From a virus, in the IMG/VR virus record IMGVR_UViG_3300002917_000009, positions 1 to 25,549 of that record: a DNA stretch of 25,549 nucleotides; one strand, given 5' to 3'. Position numbers and translations under genes: made by a program. The notes under the pieces were generated by a model. That model was not told where the DNA came from. It saw only the letters and a program-made list of their open reading frames with translations, and searched no databases. Each line of letters begins with the position of its first letter. Within the stretch, counting starts at the first letter, position 1. Shown one piece after another: positions 1,488-25,549 of this stretch.

Positions 1488-3089
1488 TTAGAAACTGTCC
1501 GGCTCATCATCTTCCACTTCACAATCCATTAGGATTGGAAATGAAATTGGGATCGGAGTAGTTAATCCCCAAACGAACTCCAAGATAAAATTATTTGAAC
1601 CGGTAACATCAAAAGCTAAACCTGGCATTTTCATAATAATTTTTCTCCGGCCGCCATAAGTCGCGTTATTGATTACCGGCAAAGACGCGATTGTATGGGA
1701 AGCGTCATCGTTATATAAAGTTGTAGTAATTTGGGTATTGGCATCCACGAGTCCGGCTAAAGGAATCCTTAATTTCATGATCCTAAATTTTCTGCCGATA
1801 TTAAACATAAAACGGAGTGTTGAGCCTAGAGTCGCCGAAGATGAATATTTATCCAATCCGTTCGCCGGTGTACCATCATGCCAACCGACGACCATTTTCG
1901 GGGCGACGTTTGAAGATTGCTGGGCGAATTTTAAAGCCGTCACAATTTGACTAACACCTGAAGTAGAAGGAGTCATAACCGCATGGATAGGCACTGGTTC
2001 CTGGGAGAGTCGGACATTTTTAGAGTTAAATCCAAAAACCACGCTTGAAGCTACAGGGTAAGTTATCCAACTACCCCAAACAACCCGATTACCTTTAGCG
2101 TCAATTGCTCCAGGAAAAGGCGAGTAACCTTCTTCTTGGTAAACAATTTCATGCAAAGAATCGCCGCCGACATAATGAGAAATTCTCATACCACTTTGAG
2201 CGTTACCAGAAAAAACCAGCAACTTGCCATTGACATCGTCGATCGCCGTGGCAAATGGATCAGCTAAGGGAATATTGCGGTAGAAACCAGAAGTATTAGT
2301 CGTATCCCACAAAATCAACCAACCATTGCCTTGATTAACTACGGTATCGGTCGATTGAAAACCGACAATAGCTAAATCATTAATATTGTAATTGACTAGA
2401 TCCATGGGGTAATAACCAAAAGGCAAAGCCAAAACTTGGTAAGCTGAACCGCTGTTGGTATCGCCTTCATTAGTAACCCGAGTGGTTTTGATCTTATTTA
2501 AATACCCTTGGCCATTTTTAAAGTCACAAAAGTATAAGGCGTTATCGCCTGGATTATATTGAGCCCAATGATTAGGCAAAGCCACCCCGCGAAAAGATGG
2601 GTAAGTCGTATTAGTTAAGGCTGTCTGAGTTCCCAAAGTCGCCCCTGTCCACACGGTATCAGTCAACGCAGGAACGCCGTCTAAAGGGCCATAACGGGAA
2701 ACATCAGTGCCAGTGGAAGTACCTAGTAGATAAATATAATTATTATAGTAAGCAGCTCCCGAGCAAGTTCCACCCGCCGCAGGGGCAATTAAGGTTTCCA
2801 CACCCAAAGCTGAATTATAAGAAATCAACCGTCCGTTATTTAAAACAACATAAGTCAAGGTATTTTTCGGATTGGTGATGATGTTGATTATCGGAGCATT
2901 GACGTTGACTCCGGAGAATTTGGAATAACCGATAGGGACGGCTAAACCGGAAGTTCTAATATCAGTAGAACTGATTGGGAAGTCCGGATCTATCGCAAGA
3001 GACGAATTGTATGTCCCTTTCATATTGAAATACATCGCAGGACTCCATCCATTTAATATCGAGTCGATTCTTAATTTTAGGATTGCCAT
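1488..3089 (-). CDS. Beta-propeller-like tail hub / stopper protein
   Basis: 533 residues. The body is a series of short beta segments ending in aromatic and Gly residues (LTYVVLNNGRLISYNS, YYNNYIYLLGTSTG, GKLLVFSGNAQSG, GNRVVWGSW), the pattern of a beta-propeller. The last ~140 residues look like a beta-sandwich. It lies between the adaptor gene (3582) and the beta-helix tailspike. In P22-like podoviruses this slot holds the gp10 hub, a propeller of about 470 residues that closes the portal-adaptor channel. The assignment rests on order and fold pattern, not on a recognised motif. Its ATG overlaps the stop of the HNH gene upstream (TAATG), so translation is probably coupled. It shares the MAIL- start with the 8046 gene. 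It could instead be a receptor-binding propeller. Confidence 0.65.
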   Translation of the reverse strand: MAILKLRIDSILNGWSPAMYFNMKGTYNSSLAIDPDFPISSTDIRTSGLAVPIGYSKFSGVNVNAPIINIITNPKNTLTYVVLNNGRLISYNSALGVETLIAPAAGGTCSGAAYYNNYIYLLGTSTGTDVSRYGPLDGVPALTDTVWTGATLGTQTALTNTTYPSFRGVALPNHWAQYNPGDNALYFCDFKNGQGYLNKIKTTRVTNEGDTNSGSAYQVLALPFGYYPMDLVNYNINDLAIVGFQSTDTVVNQGNGWLILWDTTNTSGFYRNIPLADPFATAIDDVNGKLLVFSGNAQSGMRISHYVGGDSLHEIVYQEEGYSPFPGAIDAKGNRVVWGSWITYPVASSVVFGFNSKNVRLSQEPVPIHAVMTPSTSGVSQIVTALKFAQQSSNVAPKMVVGWHDGTPANGLDKYSSSATLGSTLRFMFNIGRKFRIMKLRIPLAGLVDANTQITTTLYNDDASHTIASLPVINNATYGGRRKIIMKMPGLAFDVTGSNNFILEFVWGLTTPIPISFPILMDCEVEDDEPDSF

Positions 3090-3577
3090 TAGATTTTATT
3101 TAAATAAGCAAATTGACCAAAAAATTGTTTGGCGGCTTGATTGTAAGCAAGAGCGGCTTGATTTTCATTATCATAGCTTCCTAAGTTCCTTGTTTTATGA
3201 TTTATACAGATTTGAGCAATCCACTTCTTATTATTAGGAAATTTTGTTACACCCTTAAATTTGGATAAACTATTCTTATGAGGCTTACTATTAAAAAGAT
3301 TTTGTTTTTTATAGCATAATCGTAAGTTACTTAGGACATTATTTAATCCATTTCCATCTATATGGTCTACTTCCTTATTCTTAGGAGCTTCCATAATCAA
3401 ACGATGCATATAGATTTTATTCGATTTTCCTTTAGAACCCTTAATCCATTGGGTTCGTTGAGCATATAAATTTCCATGTTTATCTGTATGGCAAAACCAT
3501 TTCCATTGACTCAGGAAATCAAAATTTTCATCATCTACAATGGTTTTTTTATTTTGAGTTAATTCAATATATTTCAT
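3089..3577 (-). CDS. HNH-AP2 homing endonuclease
   Basis: 162 residues. The N-terminal part is MKYIELTQ followed by a Trp-rich segment (QWKWFC). A central HNH-3 type nuclease has HRLIM, then VDHIDGNGLNN and NLRLC. The C-terminal AP2 DNA-binding domain runs from about residue 108, with SKFKGV, a W.AQI core, LGSYDNENQAALAYNQAA and a final YLN. These proteins cut unoccupied alleles and spread by repair; they serve no virion function. It is a paralogue of the gene at 19490, with the same start and domain order. It sits exactly between the adaptor and hub genes, joined by TAATG to the hub, so it is a free-standing insertion that leaves both neighbours intact. More AT-rich than the structural genes around it. 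Confidence 0.9.
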   Translation of the reverse strand: MKYIELTQNKKTIVDDENFDFLSQWKWFCHTDKHGNLYAQRTQWIKGSKGKSNKIYMHRLIMEAPKNKEVDHIDGNGLNNVLSNLRLCYKKQNLFNSKPHKNSLSKFKGVTKFPNNKKWIAQICINHKTRNLGSYDNENQAALAYNQAAKQFFGQFAYLNKI

Positions 3578-3581
3578 AAAA

Positions 3582-4745
3582 TTATGGGCCAGTATTAGAA
3601 ATTAATAAATTTGGATTTACGATAACATACGGTGATTCACCAGAATCAAGGACAGGTGAGGCTTGTTTGTCGGATTGTTCATCATCCATCTGTTGGTATA
3701 GGCCTTTAAACAATCCGTTGTAGAGCTCAAATTTAGTCTTATCTGGCGAGACCGTGGCAAAGTACTGGCGGGCGGCATCCCAAACAGGCAGGTCGGTATA
3801 GCCTTCGGGAAAAGCTGACATCTGGCCTAGAGTATAAACCGCCGTCCCAGAAGCAATTGAATTACCAGTATAATTGCGAACTAACGATAAAGTTGTGGCA
3901 CTGATATTTAATATCGTATGCACGCCAGATTGAACGCCGGACGTGTTAATAGCAGCACCTCCAGCACTGGCAGAGACCTGGAAGGCATTAGCAGTTAAAC
4001 CGGTGGATAAGACGTAATAATTCGTCCCAGTAGAAAGTCCTGTGGGCAGGGCTCCGGTCGTTGTAAAATTAATAACATCGTTGGCAACCAAGCCATGATT
4101 GGTCGCAGTAATCACGGCGGGTGTCGCAATAGTTATGGTAAAGATGCTGATTAAATTATTGACCTCATACCAAAACCCATCGCCGGTGTTGGCGGAATTA
4201 GAATCGGTAATTCTTAAATATCGACCCCCCATTTGTTGGGTAAAAGCAGTCCCAGTGGCAACGATTTGTCTCGTGCCATTGGTCGCTGTCGTAATCGAGC
4301 CAGTTATGTAATCGGCAAGGGTCAAGTCTTTGACAATCTTTTTATAAATCAATCCAATGCCGTTGCCTGACGTGGCCGGAGTTGGCCAGATCCAAACCTG
4401 CCCGCCAAAGATATAAAAGAATAAAGGGATGTCGGCGGTGTAAGACACTAAGTTAATCCGATCCCATTCATCTCGAAGCGTGATCAGTCTTGGTACCCAA
4501 CGAAAATTCGAAACCGTGATGTACATGCTTTTAAACTTGCCGTTAATCTGAGGCATGTTGTAATTTTGCTGGTTTGCAACAGTGACTAACGATTTGTCTT
4601 CTTTTTCCAAAAACGGCCAGTCTTTAGAAGCCAAAATTCGCTTTTCCGATTGGTTCATTAAACGATCCCCTAAATTTAGGGTATTGATATCTGAGGCGTT
4701 TGTAATGTCTTGCCATTGTTGGCGTCTGCCGGTATAACTTAGCGT
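3582..4745 (-). CDS. Head-tail adaptor (connector) protein, probable ACG start
   Basis: A family of phage adaptors that dock under the portal. Recognisable pieces are ILASKDWPFLEKED near the N-terminus, PLFFYIFGGQVWIWPTP and the closing PEGYTDLPVWDAARQYF. The first ATG is at 4658 (358 residues), but the frame stays open upstream and reads TGRRQQWQDITN...LNLGDRLMN, which matches the usual N-terminus of this family. The only start-like codon there is ACG at 4745, 9 nt after AAGGGAG, giving 387 residues. Either a rare ACG start or a T-to-C change from ATG is possible. Residues about 120-280 (ATG numbering) are a beta module like that in the tailspike, itself split by a second inserted domain at 172-249 (HGLVANDVINF...). 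The C-terminus is a helical tail. Confidence 0.78.
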   Translation of the reverse strand, partial: TLSYTGRRQQWQDITNASDINTLNLGDRLMNQSEKRILASKDWPFLEKEDKSLVTVANQQNYNMPQINGKFKSMYITVSNFRWVPRLITLRDEWDRINLVSYTADIPLFFYIFGGQVWIWPTPATSGNGIGLIYKKIVKDLTLADYITGSITTATNGTRQIVATGTAFTQQMGGRYLRITDSNSANTGDGFWYEVNNLISIFTITIATPAVITATNHGLVANDVINFTTTGALPTGLSTGTNYYVLSTGLTANAFQVSASAGGAAINTSGVQSGVHTILNISATTLSLVRNYTGNSIASGTAVYTLGQMSAFPEGYTDLPVWDAARQYFATVSPDKTKFELYNGLFKGLYQQMDDEQSDKQASPVLDSGESPYVIVNPNLLISNTGP

Positions 4746-9585: not shown

Positions 9586-10029
9586 TTATTCCTTTAATCC
9601 TGGAAATTCTGTCTCAGTGACTGCGACAGATTCCTTAACTTTTTTAGGTCGACCTCGTGAAACTGAAACTTCTGCGACAGGTTTTGATTTTTCCTTAACA
9701 TTCATCAATTCCCGATCGATATCAGAGGACCGGACTTCTGCTCCTGGCTCCATGATGCAAAGTTTTGTCATCTTGGCCCGTTCATAAGTATCATCAATCG
9801 CTTTATTGTTCCGATCCAATTCACGGTTAATTAAATGCTTGGCTAAATGTTCCGCGCGCCAATCTTCCATATATTCCGATTGTCCTGGCAGGAAGGTTTC
9901 AGGTTGGCCATCCCATTTACAATTTTCGTCGACTGTTTCGACTAATTCTTGACTCTTAGGATGCGGCCACATGTAAGGCACGCCAGAGAATGGTTGTTTC
10001 GAAAAATTCACAAACAAAATTGTTTTCAC
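9586..10029 (-). CDS. Capsid-proximal hypothetical protein with RGRPKK motif, GTG start
   Basis: 147 residues from GTG at 10029. The start is fixed by GAAAGG with a 7-nt spacer. The segment from about 40 to 75 (QPETFLPGQSEYMEDWRAEH, then LAKHLINREL) resembles proteins often found beside phage capsid genes, with no known role. Near the C-terminus, SRGRPKKVKE is an AT-hook-like basic motif, which may be chance. It is one of only two genes here with the composite leader element (10037-10080), the other being the scaffold gene, so it may be expressed at a high or specially timed level. Confidence 0.7.
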   Translation of the reverse strand: MKTILFVNFSKQPFSGVPYMWPHPKSQELVETVDENCKWDGQPETFLPGQSEYMEDWRAEHLAKHLINRELDRNNKAIDDTYERAKMTKLCIMEPGAEVRSSDIDRELMNVKEKSKPVAEVSVSRGRPKKVKESVAVTETEFPGLKE

Positions 10030-10036
10030 AGAATTA

Positions 10037-10080
10037 CCTTTCGTGTCCGTAGGGTGAAGCGGACTTAATTTATACTCCCC
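10037..10080 (-). promoter_or_regulatory. Composite leader element, copy 2 (16-mer + hairpin + ribosome site)
   Basis: Reading the minus strand: GGGGAGTATAAATTAA at 10080-10065, then without a gap a hairpin GTCCG-CTTCACCCTA-CGGAC at 10064-10045, then AC and the ribosome site GAAAGG at 10042-10037, 7 nt before the GTG. The same layout occurs at 13929-13887 with a different stem sequence. TATAAATT resembles the T4-type late promoter core TATAAATA. If so, the transcript would begin near the base of the hairpin. An RNA element is the alternative. Seen directly: the repeat, the hairpin and the adjacency. Function is inferred. Confidence 0.6.
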
Positions 10081-10087
10081 TAATTGA

Positions 10088-10139
10088 GGCGGTCTTTATG
10101 GGAAGACCGCCAGAACCACTAGCTTGAGAGAAGCTTAGT
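10088..10139 (-). other. Two tandem hairpins between HNH gene and leader element
   Basis: On the minus strand, ACTAAGCTT-CTCTC-AAGCTAGT (10139-10118, 8 pairs with one bulge) is followed by GGCGGTCTT-CCCATA-AAGACCGCC (10111-10088, about 9 pairs). Neither is followed by a T-run, so they are not classical intrinsic terminators. They may protect or process the transcript end after the HNH gene. Confidence 0.5.
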
Positions 10140-10144
10140 TTAAT

Positions 10145-10663
10145 TTAATCTTTACTGAAGTTTAATGTGAAACAGAATTGACATTTAGGACACTTAACTT
10201 CGGAACTATGTTTACTTGAATGCCATTTTCGTTCAGTAAGTTCTAAGTTTTCTGGTCTATTATCGCTTCTATTTCCGTTTTTGTGATGGACAATTTCATT
10301 AGAAGTAAGACTTCTGTTTAAAATTTGTGACATTACCAAACGGTGTTCAAAAATATATCCGCTTTTTCCGCTCATTGGATTATCTGGCATCCAAAGATGA
10401 ACATATCCTTGATTTTTACGTCTTTTAGAAAAATAGCTTTTAGGTTTACCTTTATGGGCAAGACCTATTTTTTTAAGAACTTCAAGCGAATTATGATGCC
10501 CTTTCACGAAACGTGATGGTCTTAACTCTATTCCATATAAATGAAGGCAGTCAGTTACTGTTTTAGTACTTCGCTTTAATTCATAAGCAATTTTTCTAAT
10601 TGATTTCCTTTTTTCACAATATTCTTCTTTTAAAGAACTTTCTTGGATAGGATTGCTTATCAT
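10145..10663 (-). CDS. HNH endonuclease with N-terminal helix-turn-helix
   Basis: 172 residues. Residues 8-50 resemble a helix-turn-helix ([20 protein letters not shown], then [15 protein letters not shown]). The nuclease core follows: [46 protein letters not shown], the HNH-3 layout with His-His and Asn. The C-terminus has a Cys pair (VKCPKCQF) that could bind zinc. It stands alone between the gene starting at 11437 and the leader of the 10029 gene, breaking neither. Its start codon lies within the 39-bp palindrome at 10657-10695, which suggests its own control. A third HNH type in this window. Confidence 0.88.
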
Positions 10664-12014: not shown

Positions 12015-13061
12015 TTACGTTGATGTAATTCCTGTAAGCTTGCCGTGTCTTTTCGGATTCTGGGTGATGAACTGTCCACCAAGGTAGATGTGACCTACCA
12101 CCGAAGCCGAGTTGATCGGTTTGATCCAACCGGACCAGGAGAAGCCCAGTCCCAACGGAGTGTTATAATCATTGCCATCAATTACGAATTTGTATTTAAT
12201 AGCATCCGTCATAGCAACAGGCAGAGCGTAGAAATCCAAGAAGTCTTCGTTAACGAAAGCCAACTGTTGAGCAGTTGATTTTTCATCAGCGAGAATCGGA
12301 AATCCTTTGAAGTACAATCCTGTAAAACCAGTACCGGTGTAAAGACCCTGTCCTGGCTTATCAATTCGGCCACCTTTTTTAACAATCGAGAAATCTTTAA
12401 CGACGCGCTCTTGCGGTTGTAAAAGTGTTTCGTAGAAGTTAAAAACTGCCGGAGTAGTCAAACCAAGAGTTGGTTTGATCGAACCGGATGTGATGTTGTT
12501 GTAAAGAGTAGACATCTTTGGCAACGAAATCACACCAGAGGAAGCGGTAACCGTCCCTTTTAGTGTGGTATTGGTTGAACGAGCAAGTCCGCCGATGTTG
12601 GCAACGTTTGTGCCATCATCAACCAAAGCTGCAAGCCCCAACGGGTCTTTGCTGTTATTGCCTGTACCGTCCGCGTAAGCAATGGTGCCAAGGTTATCAG
12701 CCATGTCTTGAGCGGTTGAAGCTGTTTCGACATCAATCAAATCTATGACTTTGGTTTCATCTACCGCGTTGACCGATAATTCGTCGAGCGGTAAGGCTAC
12801 GGTAATCTGATAAAATGCCGGACTAAAAGCCAGCAAGTTGCGAGTTTGTGAAGAAGTCGTGGAGAATTGATCGAAGCCGCCGAAAGATGTCCCAGTAGTA
12901 TTGGTTGAAAGTTTCACTGGAAACTTCAGCGTTTCACCTTTCCACTTCTTGGTTGCTGACAAGATTCGTGTCAGCAATACGTTCGAGTTCAAAACGGTGT
13001 CGACAACCGCCGGCATGATTTTGAAATACGTCACAGATAGAACTCTGTTAGTAAACGTCAT
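12015..13061 (-). CDS. Major capsid protein (HK97-fold type)
   Basis: 348 residues, following the scaffold gene by 20 nt, the usual order. The N-terminal region (LNSNVLLTRILSATKKWKGE) leads into a beta segment FPVKLSTNTTGTSFGGFDQF and AFYQITVALPLDELSVNAVD, an arrangement typical of the N-arm and E-loop side of HK97-like capsid proteins. The central helix includes TASTAQDMADNLGTIAYADG. The closing part contains GFTGLYFKGFPILADEK and FYALPVAMTDAIKYKFVIDG. It forms the icosahedral shell, probably cleared of scaffold during maturation. No protease gene is seen in the window. The leader is AT-rich without a good Shine-Dalgarno; coupling to the scaffold gene is possible. Confidence 0.83.
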   Translation of the reverse strand: MTFTNRVLSVTYFKIMPAVVDTVLNSNVLLTRILSATKKWKGETLKFPVKLSTNTTGTSFGGFDQFSTTSSQTRNLLAFSPAFYQITVALPLDELSVNAVDETKVIDLIDVETASTAQDMADNLGTIAYADGTGNNSKDPLGLAALVDDGTNVANIGGLARSTNTTLKGTVTASSGVISLPKMSTLYNNITSGSIKPTLGLTTPAVFNFYETLLQPQERVVKDFSIVKKGGRIDKPGQGLYTGTGFTGLYFKGFPILADEKSTAQQLAFVNEDFLDFYALPVAMTDAIKYKFVIDGNDYNTPLGLGFSWSGWIKPINSASVVGHIYLGGQFITQNPKRHGKLTGITST

Positions 13062-13081: not shown

Positions 13082-13882
13082 TTACCAGACTTTGTGCAAT
13101 CCTTTTTGAATATCCTCATGGGTCAGGTAATCACGGGCCGGAGCTTCACCTTTGTTGGTGCTGGTAGTAGAGGCGGCTAATTCCTTGCGGGCATCAGTTT
13201 TCTTCTTGCCCTCGGTTTCAGCCACTCGATCTTCCAAAAGCATAATATTATAGGCTTTAGTAAAATCGATATTCCCGTTTAAATCAGTCGGCATATCTCT
13301 GATGGCAATCGCTTTCAGGCGATTTTCATCAAAAGTTTTGCCGCTGTCTTTCAGTGATTGGACGGAAGTTTCAACCCATGTCTCCCAACGCTTATTTTCA
13401 GCTTCCACCGCTTGCCTTCCGGCCTCAATACGGCCTTCGTATTCGGCAATGGCTTCGTCCTTAATTCGTTGGGCTTCCGTATCACGTTCCAGTAAATATT
13501 CTTTATAAAGTTCGGGATCATCCCCATAAACTTTCTTAAAAAATTCGCTGGGTTTTATATCACCCCTAAGTAAGGGTGAAAATTTGTCTTCCAAGCTTTG
13601 AATGCGGCCTTCGTATTCGGCTTTAGTTTCGCCGATGGCCTGTTCCAATTTGGTTTGCCATTCCCGTTCACGTTCCTGCCAGCGGGGATGGTCTTTGAAG
13701 GGTAATCCTTTATCTGATTGAGTATTGTCCCCCTCAACCGGCGGGGTTTCGTCCTTTGATTTGGTTTCAGCGGTCGCTTCTGGCGCAGTTTTCTCTGCGT
13801 CGCTAGCGGTAATGGTTTCATCACCGTTAGGCAATTCGGCCGGTTTTGACAGTTCTTCTTCTGTCATATTCTCAAAATCCAT
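13082..13882 (-). CDS. Capsid scaffold protein
   Basis: 266 residues, acidic at the N-terminus (MDFENMTEEELSKPAELPNG) and then long charged helices: WQEREREWQTKLEQAIGETK, RIQSLEDKFSPLLRGDIKPS, YLLERDTEAQRIKDEAIAEY. A short basic C-terminal segment (DYLTHEDIQKGLHKVW) is the usual capsid-contact end in scaffold proteins. Position directly before the capsid gene supports the call. It nucleates procapsid assembly and is then removed. It has the strongest translation signal in the window, GAAAGGA 5-6 nt from ATG, preceded by the composite leader element (13887-13929). Confidence 0.82.
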   Translation of the reverse strand: MDFENMTEEELSKPAELPNGDETITASDAEKTAPEATAETKSKDETPPVEGDNTQSDKGLPFKDHPRWQEREREWQTKLEQAIGETKAEYEGRIQSLEDKFSPLLRGDIKPSEFFKKVYGDDPELYKEYLLERDTEAQRIKDEAIAEYEGRIEAGRQAVEAENKRWETWVETSVQSLKDSGKTFDENRLKAIAIRDMPTDLNGNIDFTKAYNIMLLEDRVAETEGKKKTDARKELAASTTSTNKGEAPARDYLTHEDIQKGLHKVW

Positions 13883-13886
13883 ACTA

Positions 13887-13929
13887 TCCTTTCTCGCTTG
13901 GGTGAGTTGCGAGTTAATTTATACTCCCC
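13887..13929 (-). promoter_or_regulatory. Composite leader element, copy 1 (before scaffold gene)
   Basis: Minus strand: GGGGAGTATAAATTAA at 13929-13914, directly joined to a hairpin CTCGC-AACTCACCCAA-GCGAG at 13913-13893, then AAAGGA at 13892-13887 and the scaffold ATG at 13882. The 16-mer is identical to copy 2, the stem differs by compensating changes, and the loop keeps TCACCC. This makes the stem a real conserved structure. Candidate late promoter with a 5' hairpin, or an RNA control element. Confidence 0.62.
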
Positions 13930-16875: not shown

Positions 16876-16904
16876 ATTATATTCTTAAAAACTTATTTTG
16901 TCAA
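16876..16904 (-). promoter_or_regulatory. Perfect sigma-70 consensus promoter for the late operon
   Basis: Minus strand TTGACA at 16904-16899, 17-nt spacer, TATAAT at 16881-16876. Both hexamers and the spacing are exact consensus. The -35 box overlaps the last codons of the 16893 gene. Transcription should begin near 16869 and run toward the portal gene, meeting the terminator at 16832-16793. Host RNA polymerase would read it unaided. Confidence 0.85.
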
Positions 16905-19363: not shown

Positions 19364-19490
19364 CTTTTAATACCTCTATTTTAATTAAATCAGCGACCAT
19401 TTCAATCGCTCGTTCCGGTTCTAAGGCCTGGATTTCGACTTGGCCGACTATTTCATCTTGTAGTTTAATTTGGACTTTATAACTGTTCAT
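19347..19490 (-). CDS. Small protein, unknown
   Basis: 47 residues, MNSYKVQIKLQDEIVGQVEI then QALEPERAIEMVADLIKIEV. A beta-beta-alpha pattern can be read. Its ATG overlaps the stop of the HNH-AP2 gene (TAATG), and its end overlaps the next gene. The overlap at the start supports it as real. No family recognised. Confidence 0.58.
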   Translation of the reverse strand: MNSYKVQIKLQDEIVGQVEIQALEPERAIEMVADLIKIEVLKDVDTK

Positions 19491-19954
19491 TATAGGTTAG
19501 TTAATGAATACTCACCAAATAATTCTTTTGCCTTTAAATCATAGGCTTTTGCCGCTTCTAATTCAGTTTTATGATAGGTACAAAATACCTTACCCTGTAA
19601 TTTACATTGCATTACCCAATATTTTAATGTTTTATTCCAGCAAACGCCTTTATAATCTGAAGTTAATTGTCTCTTTTGTTTATTTTGGTTCATGCCATTT
19701 TGAGATTTAGTTACAATTCTTAAATTCTCTCGACGATTATCAAGTTTGTTATGATTGATATGGTCAACGTTTAATCCTTTTGGGCAATTACTTATTATTC
19801 TATGTAAATAAATTGCCTTTTTAATTCTTTCTGAATAATCAAATCGCATTGCATAACCTAATCCCATACAATACCACTTGTGTTTATTAACCAATTCAAA
19901 ATCCACATCATCCACAATAGCTTGTTTACCTTGAGTTAATTCAATATATTTCAT
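19490..19954 (-). CDS. HNH-AP2 homing endonuclease (second copy)
   Basis: 154 residues starting at MKYIELTQ, the ATG that overlaps the stop of the 20325 gene; a five-codon longer frame is unlikely since the paralogue at 3089 starts at the same motif. Order as there: KHKWYC, HRIISNCPKGLNVDHINHNK, NLRIVTKSQN for the HNH-3 nuclease, then the AP2 domain SDYKGVCWNKTLKYWVMQCK, with AAKAYDLKAKELFGEYSLTN. The LG of the AP2 turn is replaced (FCTYHKTELE). Joined by TAATG on both sides, it lies among small genes upstream of the terminase. Confidence 0.9.
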   Translation of the reverse strand: MKYIELTQGKQAIVDDVDFELVNKHKWYCMGLGYAMRFDYSERIKKAIYLHRIISNCPKGLNVDHINHNKLDNRRENLRIVTKSQNGMNQNKQKRQLTSDYKGVCWNKTLKYWVMQCKLQGKVFCTYHKTELEAAKAYDLKAKELFGEYSLTNL

Positions 19955-20325
19955 TATCCAGCGTCCCATTGAGTCATACCATTTGACCCTTTAATTCGGT
20001 TATCTATGCGTAGTTCTGTTCTAGCACCAACTTTATGAATACAGAAATTTTTTCCATTACAACTATTCGATAAACAAATACGAATTACTGTTAACTGCGG
20101 ATGGTAAACTTTATGATAAACAGCTTTCGTCCGTCCGGTAGGTTGACAGGTTTCGGCAATGCAGACATTCAGGTAATCTAAATTGTCAATTCTACCTTTC
20201 GAGTCCTTGTTAAACTTGTGCTTATAACCGCATTTAACGCACTGCTTGTACTGGGCATTAACAAAGTCGGCAAGATTAGTCATGTCGTGTGGTAGATTAC
20301 TTTTACATTTGGCGTAATCAATCAT
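19954..20325 (-). CDS. Cys-rich zinc-binding-like protein, unknown
   Basis: 123 residues. Cys pairs: Lys-Gln-CVKCGYKHKF, then CIAETCQ, then ICLSNSCNGKNFCIH, a layout suggesting one or two zinc sites. The rest is basic (KAVYHKVYHPQLTVIRI). Its ATG overlaps the stop of the 20600 gene (ATGA), and its stop overlaps the HNH start. I recognise no family. A nucleic acid-binding role is plausible but not shown. Confidence 0.6.
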   Translation of the reverse strand: MIDYAKCKSNLPHDMTNLADFVNAQYKQCVKCGYKHKFNKDSKGRIDNLDYLNVCIAETCQPTGRTKAVYHKVYHPQLTVIRICLSNSCNGKNFCIHKVGARTELRIDNRIKGSNGMTQWDAG

Positions 20326-20890: not shown

Positions 20891-22426
20891 TTAGTAAGGC
20901 CTTGGAGCCATTTCAACGTACTGCTTCTCTTTGCAATCTGCCAAAATCCCACGGATTAAAATTAGTTCACACGCCATAGACACGGCGGATTCGATTTGAG
21001 CGATCAAAACTGCGGTCGGATCAACCACCCCAACCTTCAAGAAGTCGCCAATCTCGCCTGTAACGATGTTTAAAGCTTCGTCTTTTTTCAAATCAGGGGC
21101 AGAAACGTTACTATTTTCCAATAATTGCATATATGGAGCCATGAGGGCTTTGTTTAAAAGGTTGGATTTAGTTTTTAAACGCGCCAAGGATAGCCCGCCA
21201 CCGCAGACTATGCCCGATTCAGCCGCAACTTTCACGGCATTAGTTGCGTCTTCAACCTTGTAACGAAGAGCGTGCATCTCTTGTTCCGTCGGCGCGCCGA
21301 CTCGAATGACCGCAATACCGTTCATTAACCGACCATAACGTCTCTGTAATCTATCCAATTTATACCCTAAAGCGTTTTCCATTAAGACTTTAATCCCAGC
21401 GGCAACCTTATTGATTTCGCTTTTCTTGCCTTTACCGCCGATTATCAAGGTTGAATCGGCTTTGGAAACTATTTTATCGGCTTTACCCAGCATCTTGATG
21501 TCAAAATCCTCAATCCGGATGTCTTTTGACCTGGATAAGACCTGTCCGCCTGTAACCACAGCCAGGTCGTTTAAAAAGTCGTCCTTATCGTCATAACCAG
21601 GAACATTTACGGCAATTGGGTAGAAAACACCGCGTTGGCGATTAGCAAGTAACGTGGTTAAAGCGTCGCTTTCAATGGCTTCGGCAACAAATACGCACTG
21701 AGTCACACCTTCTTTCACCAGTTTTTCTAGGATCTGCACCATATCGATAGCCGTGGTCAGCCGGTAATCGGTAATAAAAATCTTGGCGTTACTGAACTCA
21801 GCTTCCATTCGTTCGGGATTGGTGACCATAAATGGGGCAACATAGCCTTTTTCAAATTCAAATCCGTCAACGTGTTCGTGGGTCGTTTCCATAGTCTGCG
21901 ATTCCTGGACCGCAATCACGCCTTCGTGACCGATCTTATGGACAAGTTCGGCGATGATCTTGGAAATCTGGGCATTATCAATCGAAATCTGGGCAACTTT
22001 CTGTAAATCTTCCAAAGTTTTGACCTTTTTAGAAGCTAGAATGAGCTTATCTTTGGCTTCAGCCGCGGCTTTTTTTAATTCTGAGACGACTAAACGAGGA
22101 TTAATCGCGCCCAAAGCGTCGACTTCATTCAAAATCGCCTGAAGCATGATTAACGAGCCCGTAGTGCCGTCGCCAACTCGATCATTAGTCTTAATCGCGA
22201 CCTGCTTAATTAACTCAATCACGGCGTTTTCGTGTTCATTTTCTAGGGTAAACTTCTTGGCAATTGCTACGCCGTCGTCCAAAGCTTGCGGTTTGGCCGC
22301 AAACTCGGGGGGTAGGATGACTTTAAAACCGGAGGGGCCGAACGTAACTTTGACGTAGTCGACTAAGGCGTTGACCGCGTTTTTAATGGTTTCTTTAACT
22401 TTGTCTTGTTCCAAGTGGTGGATCAT
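20891..22426 (-). CDS. groEL: Chaperonin GroEL, divergent phage type
   Basis: 511 residues, full length apart from the tail. Equatorial ATP site: VTFGPSGFKVIL at 27-38 (family GPKG), Asp51 in LDDGV, GDGTTG with Asp86 at 85-90, and VEDATNA with Asp393 near 391-397, then CGGGLSL. The apical domain runs about 190-370 (EFEKGYVAPFM, ITDYRLTTAIDMVQILEKLV, IAVNVPGYDDKDDFLNDLAV). All three key acidic residues are present, so it should be an active ATPase. The C-terminus ends MAPRPY with no GGM repeat, which in bacterial GroEL fills the cavity floor. GroES follows 1 nt later. Probably folds a phage protein; the capsid protein is the usual client in phages. Starts 2 nt after the upstream stop with no Shine-Dalgarno. 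Confidence 0.95.
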   Translation of the reverse strand: MIHHLEQDKVKETIKNAVNALVDYVKVTFGPSGFKVILPPEFAAKPQALDDGVAIAKKFTLENEHENAVIELIKQVAIKTNDRVGDGTTGSLIMLQAILNEVDALGAINPRLVVSELKKAAAEAKDKLILASKKVKTLEDLQKVAQISIDNAQISKIIAELVHKIGHEGVIAVQESQTMETTHEHVDGFEFEKGYVAPFMVTNPERMEAEFSNAKIFITDYRLTTAIDMVQILEKLVKEGVTQCVFVAEAIESDALTTLLANRQRGVFYPIAVNVPGYDDKDDFLNDLAVVTGGQVLSRSKDIRIEDFDIKMLGKADKIVSKADSTLIIGGKGKKSEINKVAAGIKVLMENALGYKLDRLQRRYGRLMNGIAVIRVGAPTEQEMHALRYKVEDATNAVKVAAESGIVCGGGLSLARLKTKSNLLNKALMAPYMQLLENSNVSAPDLKKDEALNIVTGEIGDFLKVGVVDPTAVLIAQIESAVSMACELILIRGILADCKEKQYVEMAPRPY

Positions 22427-24862: not shown

Positions 24863-25168
24863 TTAAATTAAATGTTTATGACAGGAACAATTAACATTTC
24901 CACATATCGGAATATCTTTAATATATTCCTTACAATTATTACAACAATAAGGTTTATAGGCCAGAGGAGTGACGAAAGCCTCTAACTCTTTTAAATCCTC
25001 AGCTAGGTTGGAGATGTCTGTAAACATATCGGACTGTTTTTTGTGCATGTCGTTTACGACGTCGATGAGTTCCATGTCATTTACGAAGTCGATTATTTCG
25101 TTGAGCTTGTCCGTTACAGCATGTTCCCATAGCTTTAATTCACCATGAACCTTTATTTTTTCTATCAT
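24863..25168 (-). CDS. Coiled-coil protein with C-terminal zinc site (duplicate pair, member 2)
   Basis: 101 residues. Residues 14-70 are a coiled coil that matches the upstream gene: EIIDFVNDM...ISNLAEDLKELEAFV here, EIIDFVNEI...ISQIAEDLRELEAFV there. Inside it a 10-residue unit is repeated in tandem (IIDFVNDMEL / LIDVVNDMHK). The C-terminus, YCCNNCKEYI and ICGNVNCSCHKH, adds a Cys-rich site absent from its partner. Function unknown. AT-rich leader, no Shine-Dalgarno. Confidence 0.65.
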   Translation of the reverse strand: MIEKIKVHGELKLWEHAVTDKLNEIIDFVNDMELIDVVNDMHKKQSDMFTDISNLAEDLKELEAFVTPLAYKPYCCNNCKEYIKDIPICGNVNCSCHKHLI

Positions 25169-25171
25169 AGT

Positions 25172-25549
25172 TTAGATATTAATATCTTCTTGAATCTCAC
25201 TTAGCAAATCATTTATCCTTTGCTCTTCATCCGGTAATTTCCCAGAGATTTTATATTCATCGATGATTTTTAGGATTCTGGCTCGTTCATCTTGGCGGAT
25301 TGATTCCATCATTTGAGATGCTCTCTCTGGCGGTAACATAAACTGGTATTCCCACATTTCTCGATGTGCTTCCAGGCTTGCTTCCTCTATCTCTTTCACT
25401 TTATTACCGACAAAAGCCTCTAATTCTCTTAAATCCTCAGCTATTTGAGAGATGTCTAATAATATATCTGATTCAATTTGAGCAATCTCGTTTACAAAGT
25501 CAATAATTTCGTCAAGCTTTAGTTGAATGTCTACAAGAAGTGTTTCTTT
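25172..25549 (-). CDS. Coiled-coil protein (duplicate pair, member 1; 5' end cut by window)
   Basis: The frame is open from the stop at 25172 to the window edge, 125 residues visible; an internal GTG at 25399 is not the start. The visible N-terminal part (LKLDEIIDFVNEIAQIESDI, then SQIAEDLRELEAFVGNKVKE) aligns with the next gene. The rest is its own: ASLEAHREMWEYQFMLPPER then a helix RARILKIIDEYKI. No zinc site. Tandem duplication followed by replacement of the C-terminal half is the simplest history. Confidence 0.65.
   Translation of the reverse strand, partial: KETLLVDIQLKLDEIIDFVNEIAQIESDILLDISQIAEDLRELEAFVGNKVKEIEEASLEAHREMWEYQFMLPPERASQMMESIRQDERARILKIIDEYKISGKLPDEEQRINDLLSEIQEDINI

Follow-up and report, generated by a model that had tools for sequence, protein, structure and literature searches.

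Each of two short, similarly built elements in a tailed-phage genome fragment of 25,549 bases (the whole stretch of DNA analyzed, called the window here) is read as a cis-acting H-type pseudoknot in an mRNA leader, most likely a translational operator, and we put the probability of this reading at roughly 0.55. One copy lies directly before a putative scaffold gene and the other directly before a gene for a 147-aa protein. Relatives of the phage carry H-type RNA pseudoknots, as judged by pairing, in their leaders at the same two positions (about 80 scaffold-gene leaders and 62 second-gene leaders), and in these relatives the RNA structure, its position, and its covariation are plainly observed. 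The leaders make up a widespread, hitherto undescribed family of structured phage mRNA leaders, for which both Rfam and the literature were searched without a match. In the lines below, S1 is the upstream strand pairing into the loop of the S2 hairpin, and L1, L2, and L3 are the loops. Labels such as L053 and L016 denote relatives' loci.

13082-13882, minus strand: putative scaffold gene (266 aa), an open reading frame and the first gene thought to be controlled; it adjoins the capsid gene, and its homologues likewise lie upstream of the major capsid protein gene
12015-13061, minus strand: major capsid protein gene, following immediately after the scaffold gene; matches the major head protein family phrog_9953 (E 8e-44)
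9586-10029, minus strand: second gene thought to be controlled, 147 aa, no known family; homologues lie after the capsid block (79 matches among the fetched loci)
13924-13929, minus strand: copy 1 S1 5' strand GGGGAG, partner CUC-A-CCC in the loop (from sequence, MFE pairing, and the S1 position in relatives)
13914-13923, minus strand: copy 1 loop L1 UAUAAAUUAA, a T4-late-promoter look-alike, equivalent to CUAAnnAA or CUAUAAAUUAU in relatives
13909-13913, minus strand: copy 1 S2 5' strand CUCGC (sequence, folding, chance test)
13898-13908, minus strand: copy 1 hairpin loop AACUCACCCAA, made of L2, the S1 3' strand (13900-13906), and L3; same as L2-S1'-L3 of L053
13893-13897, minus strand: copy 1 S2 3' strand GCGAG (sequence, folding, chance test)
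13888-13892, minus strand: AAAGG, Shine-Dalgarno-like by its motif, before the scaffold ATG at 13882
10088-10111, minus strand: strong hairpin GGCGGTCTT/AAGACCGCC shortly before copy 2, no U tract (-22 kcal/mol, z -5.1)
10075-10080, minus strand: copy 2 S1 5' strand GGGGAG (sequence)
10065-10074, minus strand: copy 2 loop L1 UAUAAAUUAA (sequence)
10060-10064, minus strand: copy 2 S2 5' strand GUCCG (sequence, chance test)
10050-10059, minus strand: copy 2 hairpin loop CUUCACCCUA, made of L2, the S1 3' strand UUCACCC (10052-10058), and L3 (sequence)
10045-10049, minus strand: copy 2 S2 3' strand CGGAC (sequence, chance test)
10037-10041, minus strand: AAAGG, Shine-Dalgarno-like by its motif, before the GTG at 10029

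The minus strand of the window encodes a terminase, a portal protein, the putative scaffold, the major capsid protein, more late genes, an HNH endonuclease, and the 147-aa protein. The product of 13082-13882 would be a scaffold judging by position only. The 147-aa product has no Pfam match and no PHROG match, and its AlphaFold model (moderate confidence, pLDDT 73) has no PDB match below E 0.001. The scaffold/capsid genes and the 147-aa gene may also be the most highly expressed of the phage, as the original prediction suggested. Homologues of the capsid protein and the terminase were fetched from IMG/VR, which gave 505 capsid relatives, and 80 loci were kept. Named relatives in the phage collection are limited to a TM7 phage and an unclassified phage from Manatee Spring. 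A search of 84,980 species genomes returned four relatives, all of them in Patescibacteria metagenome-assembled genomes (MAGs; Berkelbacteria, a Patescibacteria group bacterium, Parcubacteria, and Jorgensenbacteria), and the host of the window phage is therefore probably a member of Patescibacteria, an assignment resting on those four MAGs. Elsewhere in the window lie a phage-encoded GroEL-like chaperonin (20891-22426; phrog_5725, E 4e-95), which has homologues in eight relatives and a Cpn60-family counterpart in the TM7 phage record, and a perfect sigma-70-type promoter (TTGACA, 17, TATAAT) at 16876-16904 upstream of the portal gene. Two repeats were also noted: an 86-nt repeat, 77% identical, whose copies at 3492-3577 and 19869-19954 sit at the starts of the open reading frame 3089-3577 and of the HNH open reading frame 19490-19969, and, toward the end of the record, a direct repeat of 102 nt with 74% identity (24971-25072 and 25409-25510). 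Related HNH endonuclease genes occur at 10145-10663 of the window and at 10507-11073 of L021, where in each phage they separate the capsid block from the second pseudoknot leader.

As originally predicted, exact copies of the 16-mer GGGGAGTATAAATTAA lie on the minus strand at 13929-13914 and 10080-10065, with no further site in the window at up to two mismatches. In both places a 5-bp stem begins one base after the 16-mer (CTCGC/GCGAG around an 11-nt loop; GTCCG/CGGAC around a 10-nt loop), TCACCC stands in the loop, and AAAGG and a start codon follow (ATG at 13882, GTG at 10029). The suspected pairing of GGGGAG with the loop is also possible in both copies, GGG and GAG facing CUC-A-CCC or UUC-A-CCC in 6 bp with one bulged A and, in copy 2, one G-U pair. 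In copy 1, which reads GGGGAG-TATAAATTAA-CTCGC-AA-CTCACCC-AA-GCGAG, this pairing is the predicted MFE structure. A given base starts a perfect 5-bp stem closing a loop of 8-12 nt with probability 0.0062; for both copies this gives about 4e-5, with the leader position still left out of account, and the stems, which lie in leaders on the coding strand, are therefore not attributed to chance. An origin of the 16-mer repeat in homing-endonuclease activity was considered and rejected; an HNH gene adjoins copy 2 only, which leaves copy 1 unexplained.

The pseudoknots of the relatives come in at least two architectures. In the CTAA type, the order is the S1 5' strand, an L1 that is usually CTAAnnAA, the S2 5' strand, L2 (e.g., AACT), the S1 3' strand, an L3 of 1-2 nt, and the S2 3' strand, after which come an A-rich stretch and the ATG. 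The second architecture is found in many scaffold leaders, about 25 in all (e.g., L079, L074, L057, L101, and L109), and consists of S1, an L1 of (T)CTCGT, S2, no L2, S1', an A-rich L3 of 8-12 nt, and S2', followed by TGCG or TCG; this CTCG type likewise has no Rfam match. Examples are as follows.

L053 element: GGGTG-CTAATA-ATTGG-AACT-CACCC-AA-CCAAT
L016 element: GGGTG-CTAACTC-ATAGG-AACT-CACCC-AC-CCTAT
L093 element: CGGAG-CTAATCA-GCCGG-ACT-CTCCG-A-CCGGC
L079 element, CTCG type, 4600-4684: TCCGT-CTCGT-TCTGC-GCGGA-CTCAAAAAAA-GCAGA

In phages such as L006 and L007, the scaffold gene has the CTCG type and the second gene the CTAA type. At least nine loci (L012, L014, L019, L020, L021, L051, L057, L116, and L119) carry pseudoknots in tandem. 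Further loop variants (CTTATAAAA, and TATAAAAA with TGAT) in the second-gene leaders of L087, L093, L081, L089, L106, and L100, where the pseudoknots are in tandem, suggest more subtypes. The geometry of the CTAA type is not that of a classical H-type pseudoknot, a point against the operator reading: L3 has 1-2 nt where S1 has 4-7 bp, and L2 has 3-4 nt instead. So short an L3 could not span the shallow groove in the usual manner, which leaves either unusual stacking of the stems or an alternation between S1 and S2; the covariation in pairing fits both. Many relatives have strong hairpins upstream in the second-gene leader (mean MFE -11.5 vs -5.7 in controls). In two relatives a tRNA gene ends 13 nt (L012, 10662-10745) or 4 nt (L020, 12757-12836) before the second-gene pseudoknot, so that 3' processing of the tRNA would expose the pseudoknot near a new mRNA 5' end.

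Several tests on the relatives bear on the structure. When 70-nt leaders were compared with their own dinucleotide shuffles, P was 0.01 or less for 45% of 80 scaffold leaders, 37% of 62 second-gene leaders, and 12% of 160 other intergenic leaders, and an earlier version of this pairing-energy test with capsid-gene leaders as the control gave 40% vs 9%, percentages that come from a crude energy model (stacking only) and from related phages that are not independent. A loose generic pseudoknot finder proved noisy, with many matches in coding sequence, and later tests therefore relied on anchors, permutation, or leader controls. Of 71 sites chosen by S1 and its anchor only, 30 had an S2 of at least 4 bp, whereas 1000 rounds of exchanging the 3' tails between sequences gave 4.8 such sites on average and never more than 12; the S1-anchored sites without S2 lie mostly within coding sequence. 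A fixed-column alignment of 14 sequences is 94% paired over S1 and S2 (37-52% in slid controls) with two-sided changes in seven of the nine pairs, and it holds 24 two-sided cells where shuffling gives 7.3. S1 counts from a larger alignment of 26 sequences are partly circular because most of its rows were picked by S1. The covariance model R1 picked out 56 sites across 91 loci; every one is on the coding strand, and wherever checked they fall at the two leaders. Because 26 sequences from the same loci went into building R1, only the remaining sites count as independent. A scan of 2.9 million viral contigs with a sequence-only pattern gave seven matches, and all seven fall in the two leaders of this phage family; five are known loci, and the two new ones (L128 and L133) are scaffold leaders of the family with S2 intact. 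The relatives thus lend strong support to two early proposals, selection on RNA structure, through two-sided changes in both stems, and the tentative pseudoknot, through H-type pseudoknots at the leaders of the same two genes.

The window copies themselves are very probably functional members of these pseudoknot leaders, mainly on the basis of position and also on S2, the loop letters, and L1. In line with the S2 sought as a mark of the family (3-6 bp, with S1' inside the loop and ending near the AUG), theirs is 5 bp with letters that differ between the copies, encloses S1', and ends 10 and 15 nt before the start. The copy 1 hairpin loop AACTCACCCAA is identical to L2-S1'-L3 of L053, and the L1 of L085, CTATAAATTAT, shows that the TATAAATT of the window copies belongs to loop 1. 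Their S1, with its bulged A, differs from the 4-7 uninterrupted pairs with a G-C end beside L1 that were sought as the mark of the family. Two covariance models built from the relatives with the window left out were also applied. With R1, copy 1 scored 7.3 bits (E 6.5) and copy 2 was unmatched; with the S2-based model R2, copy 1 was the top window match (E 0.65) and copy 2 was again unmatched. The bulged A that S1 needs and the nonsignificant scores of these models on the window copies speak against the operator reading, under which the window copies would fold like the relatives' pseudoknots. As for the further copies that the original prediction called for, the architecture recurs at the same leaders in relatives, but the exact composite is found in no other phage of the collection. 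The 16-mer was rejected as a conserved unit after searches of viral contigs for the exact composite gave one chance match in coding sequence (L120); the conserved unit is the architecture, and the 16-mer itself is not.

In the proposed operator, GGGGAG would pair as S1 with the loop of the adjacent S2 hairpin, which ends 10-15 nt before the start codon. The folded pseudoknot would then lie within the ribosome footprint, and its folding would set how often the gene is translated. Whatever stabilizes the fold is most plausibly a phage protein, for instance the gene's own product. Spacing argues for an effect on translation, which like the protein binding is something we infer. From the end of S2 to the AUG the median is 12 nt at the scaffold gene and 14 nt at the second gene, and S2 ends 4-16 nt before the AUG in 62-69% of cases vs 37% for the best pseudoknots of control leaders. 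S2 is thus inside the bacterial ribosome footprint, and control of translation initiation is therefore favored. The pseudoknot could help translation rather than hinder it. A single regulator shared by both genes is doubtful in phages such as L006 and L007, since the types at the two sites of one genome differ.

Known systems offer partial precedents for such an operator. The scaffolding protein of phage P22 controls its own synthesis after transcription, which is a precedent for a phage product acting on a scaffold gene at the posttranscriptional level, although P22 is an unrelated phage and we know of no pseudoknot operator in its autoregulation. In phages T4, T2, and RB69, a pseudoknot operator in the gene 32 mRNA lies 67 nt upstream and seeds cooperative binding of gp32 (PMC3014915). 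This precedent for a phage pseudoknot operator is cited in favor of the translational reading: it too is an H-type pseudoknot preceding the start codon in the leader of a phage mRNA, has an A/U-rich stretch between pseudoknot and AUG, and has been proposed to act on translation. The gene 32 operator belongs to a DNA-binding protein, however, and here a capsid-block gene is involved, S2 ends about 10-15 nt before the AUG instead of 67 nt, two genes carry the pseudoknot, tandem copies occur, and the binding protein is only inferred. The rpsO (ribosomal protein S15) translational operator (mentioned in PMC3014915) is also a pseudoknot at a ribosome binding site and serves autogenous control, but it belongs to a cellular gene and, as known from the literature, has another sequence and other fold details.

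The main rival to translational control, and an unlikely one, is that the pseudoknots are 5'-exonuclease barriers that stop RNase J and stabilize the capsid mRNA segment and the one that follows, while the strong hairpin upstream of copy 2 would guard the 3' end of the segment before it. Flaviviral xrRNA is pseudoknotted, often occurs in tandem, and halts bacterial RNase J1 mechanically and without cofactors (PMC5760640), and an RNase J family protein scores above the curated cutoff in all four MAGs that carry relatives. The tandem pseudoknots in about nine relatives, the strong hairpin just upstream of the second-gene element, the tRNA genes that end just before the pseudoknot in L012 and L020, and stem letters that are nearly free while the shape is retained would all suit a barrier. 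A start codon 10-16 nt downstream is not needed by a barrier, yet the spacing is fairly tight, and the host identity on which RNase J depends comes from four MAGs. The likeness to the xrRNA of flaviviruses and plant viruses, compact pseudoknotted elements that are often in tandem, also has limits; the present elements precede start codons in DNA phages, and neither a three-way junction nor a ring is seen in them. Slightly less probable again is that the leaders are shape-only tandem barriers to RNase J marking out a long-lived capsid mRNA segment in Patescibacteria phages, which, if true, would add a class of exonuclease-resistant RNA in DNA phages of bacteria.

The tight spacing to the AUG could alternatively mean that, where a leader has no Shine-Dalgarno sequence, the pseudoknot positions the 30S subunit on the AUG, and Shine-Dalgarno-like words are indeed found in 2.5% and 3% of these leaders vs 15% of others. 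This recruiting role is improbable, however, as most other leaders of these phages also lack a Shine-Dalgarno sequence and have no pseudoknot, and the window copies have AAAGG.

Small H-type pseudoknots beside a start codon are a common riboswitch form (preQ1-I and SAM-II), and that form, together with conserved loop letters (G-CUAA in L1, the U before S1', and the A-rich tail), would be expected if a small molecule bound by the pseudoknot gated translation. The scaffold CTCG type even shares the A-rich L3 that preQ1-I has. In other respects the small pseudoknot riboswitches differ from the present leaders, which have other loop letters and occur only at phage structural genes. A search of Rfam, riboswitches included, gave nothing at the gathering threshold and only chance matches at lenient thresholds, and the literature search found no description of such leaders and no relevant work on RNA structures of Patescibacteria phages, in keeping with the original remark that no described element of exactly this form was known. 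A ligand-binding riboswitch is decidedly improbable given this lack of an Rfam match, the few invariant letters, the two loop types at the same gene, and the structural rather than metabolic nature of the controlled genes. The motif is also absent from 287 host-phylum genomes except for the one that carries the phage, in a search of limited sensitivity in which 25 candidates were scored per genome.

Chance or recent sequence copying with no function is very improbable as an account of the window copies: an exact repeated 16-mer does appear at least once in 60% of dinucleotide-shuffled windows and the relatives' models find the copies without significance, but both copies sit exactly where relatives have pseudoknots, with compensated stems and the same loop letters. 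The least credible reading is the T4-type late promoter of the original prediction, in which the transcript would begin with the hairpin, for although TATAAATT is in both window copies, the TATAAATA-like element is not conserved (TATAAA in 3 of 49 relatives' elements), the TATAAATTAA segment aligns with pseudoknot L1, usually CTAAnnAA, and the window, whose record is a fragment, shows no T4-type late sigma factor.

The pseudoknot leaders, read as translational operators, would represent an undescribed form of on-RNA control of virus-shell production, in which a shape is kept in dozens of related phages with different letters. Across a whole phage family, pseudoknots recur before two structural genes, covary strongly, occur in places as tandem copies, and take at least two architectures; they would give Rfam a new family. 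The element is a short, transplantable RNA, and its effect on translation or its resistance to exonuclease could be tested in common laboratory bacteria. For the phages of the ultrasmall Patescibacteria, almost all of them uncultured, it may provide a first handle on how the amounts of shell proteins are set.
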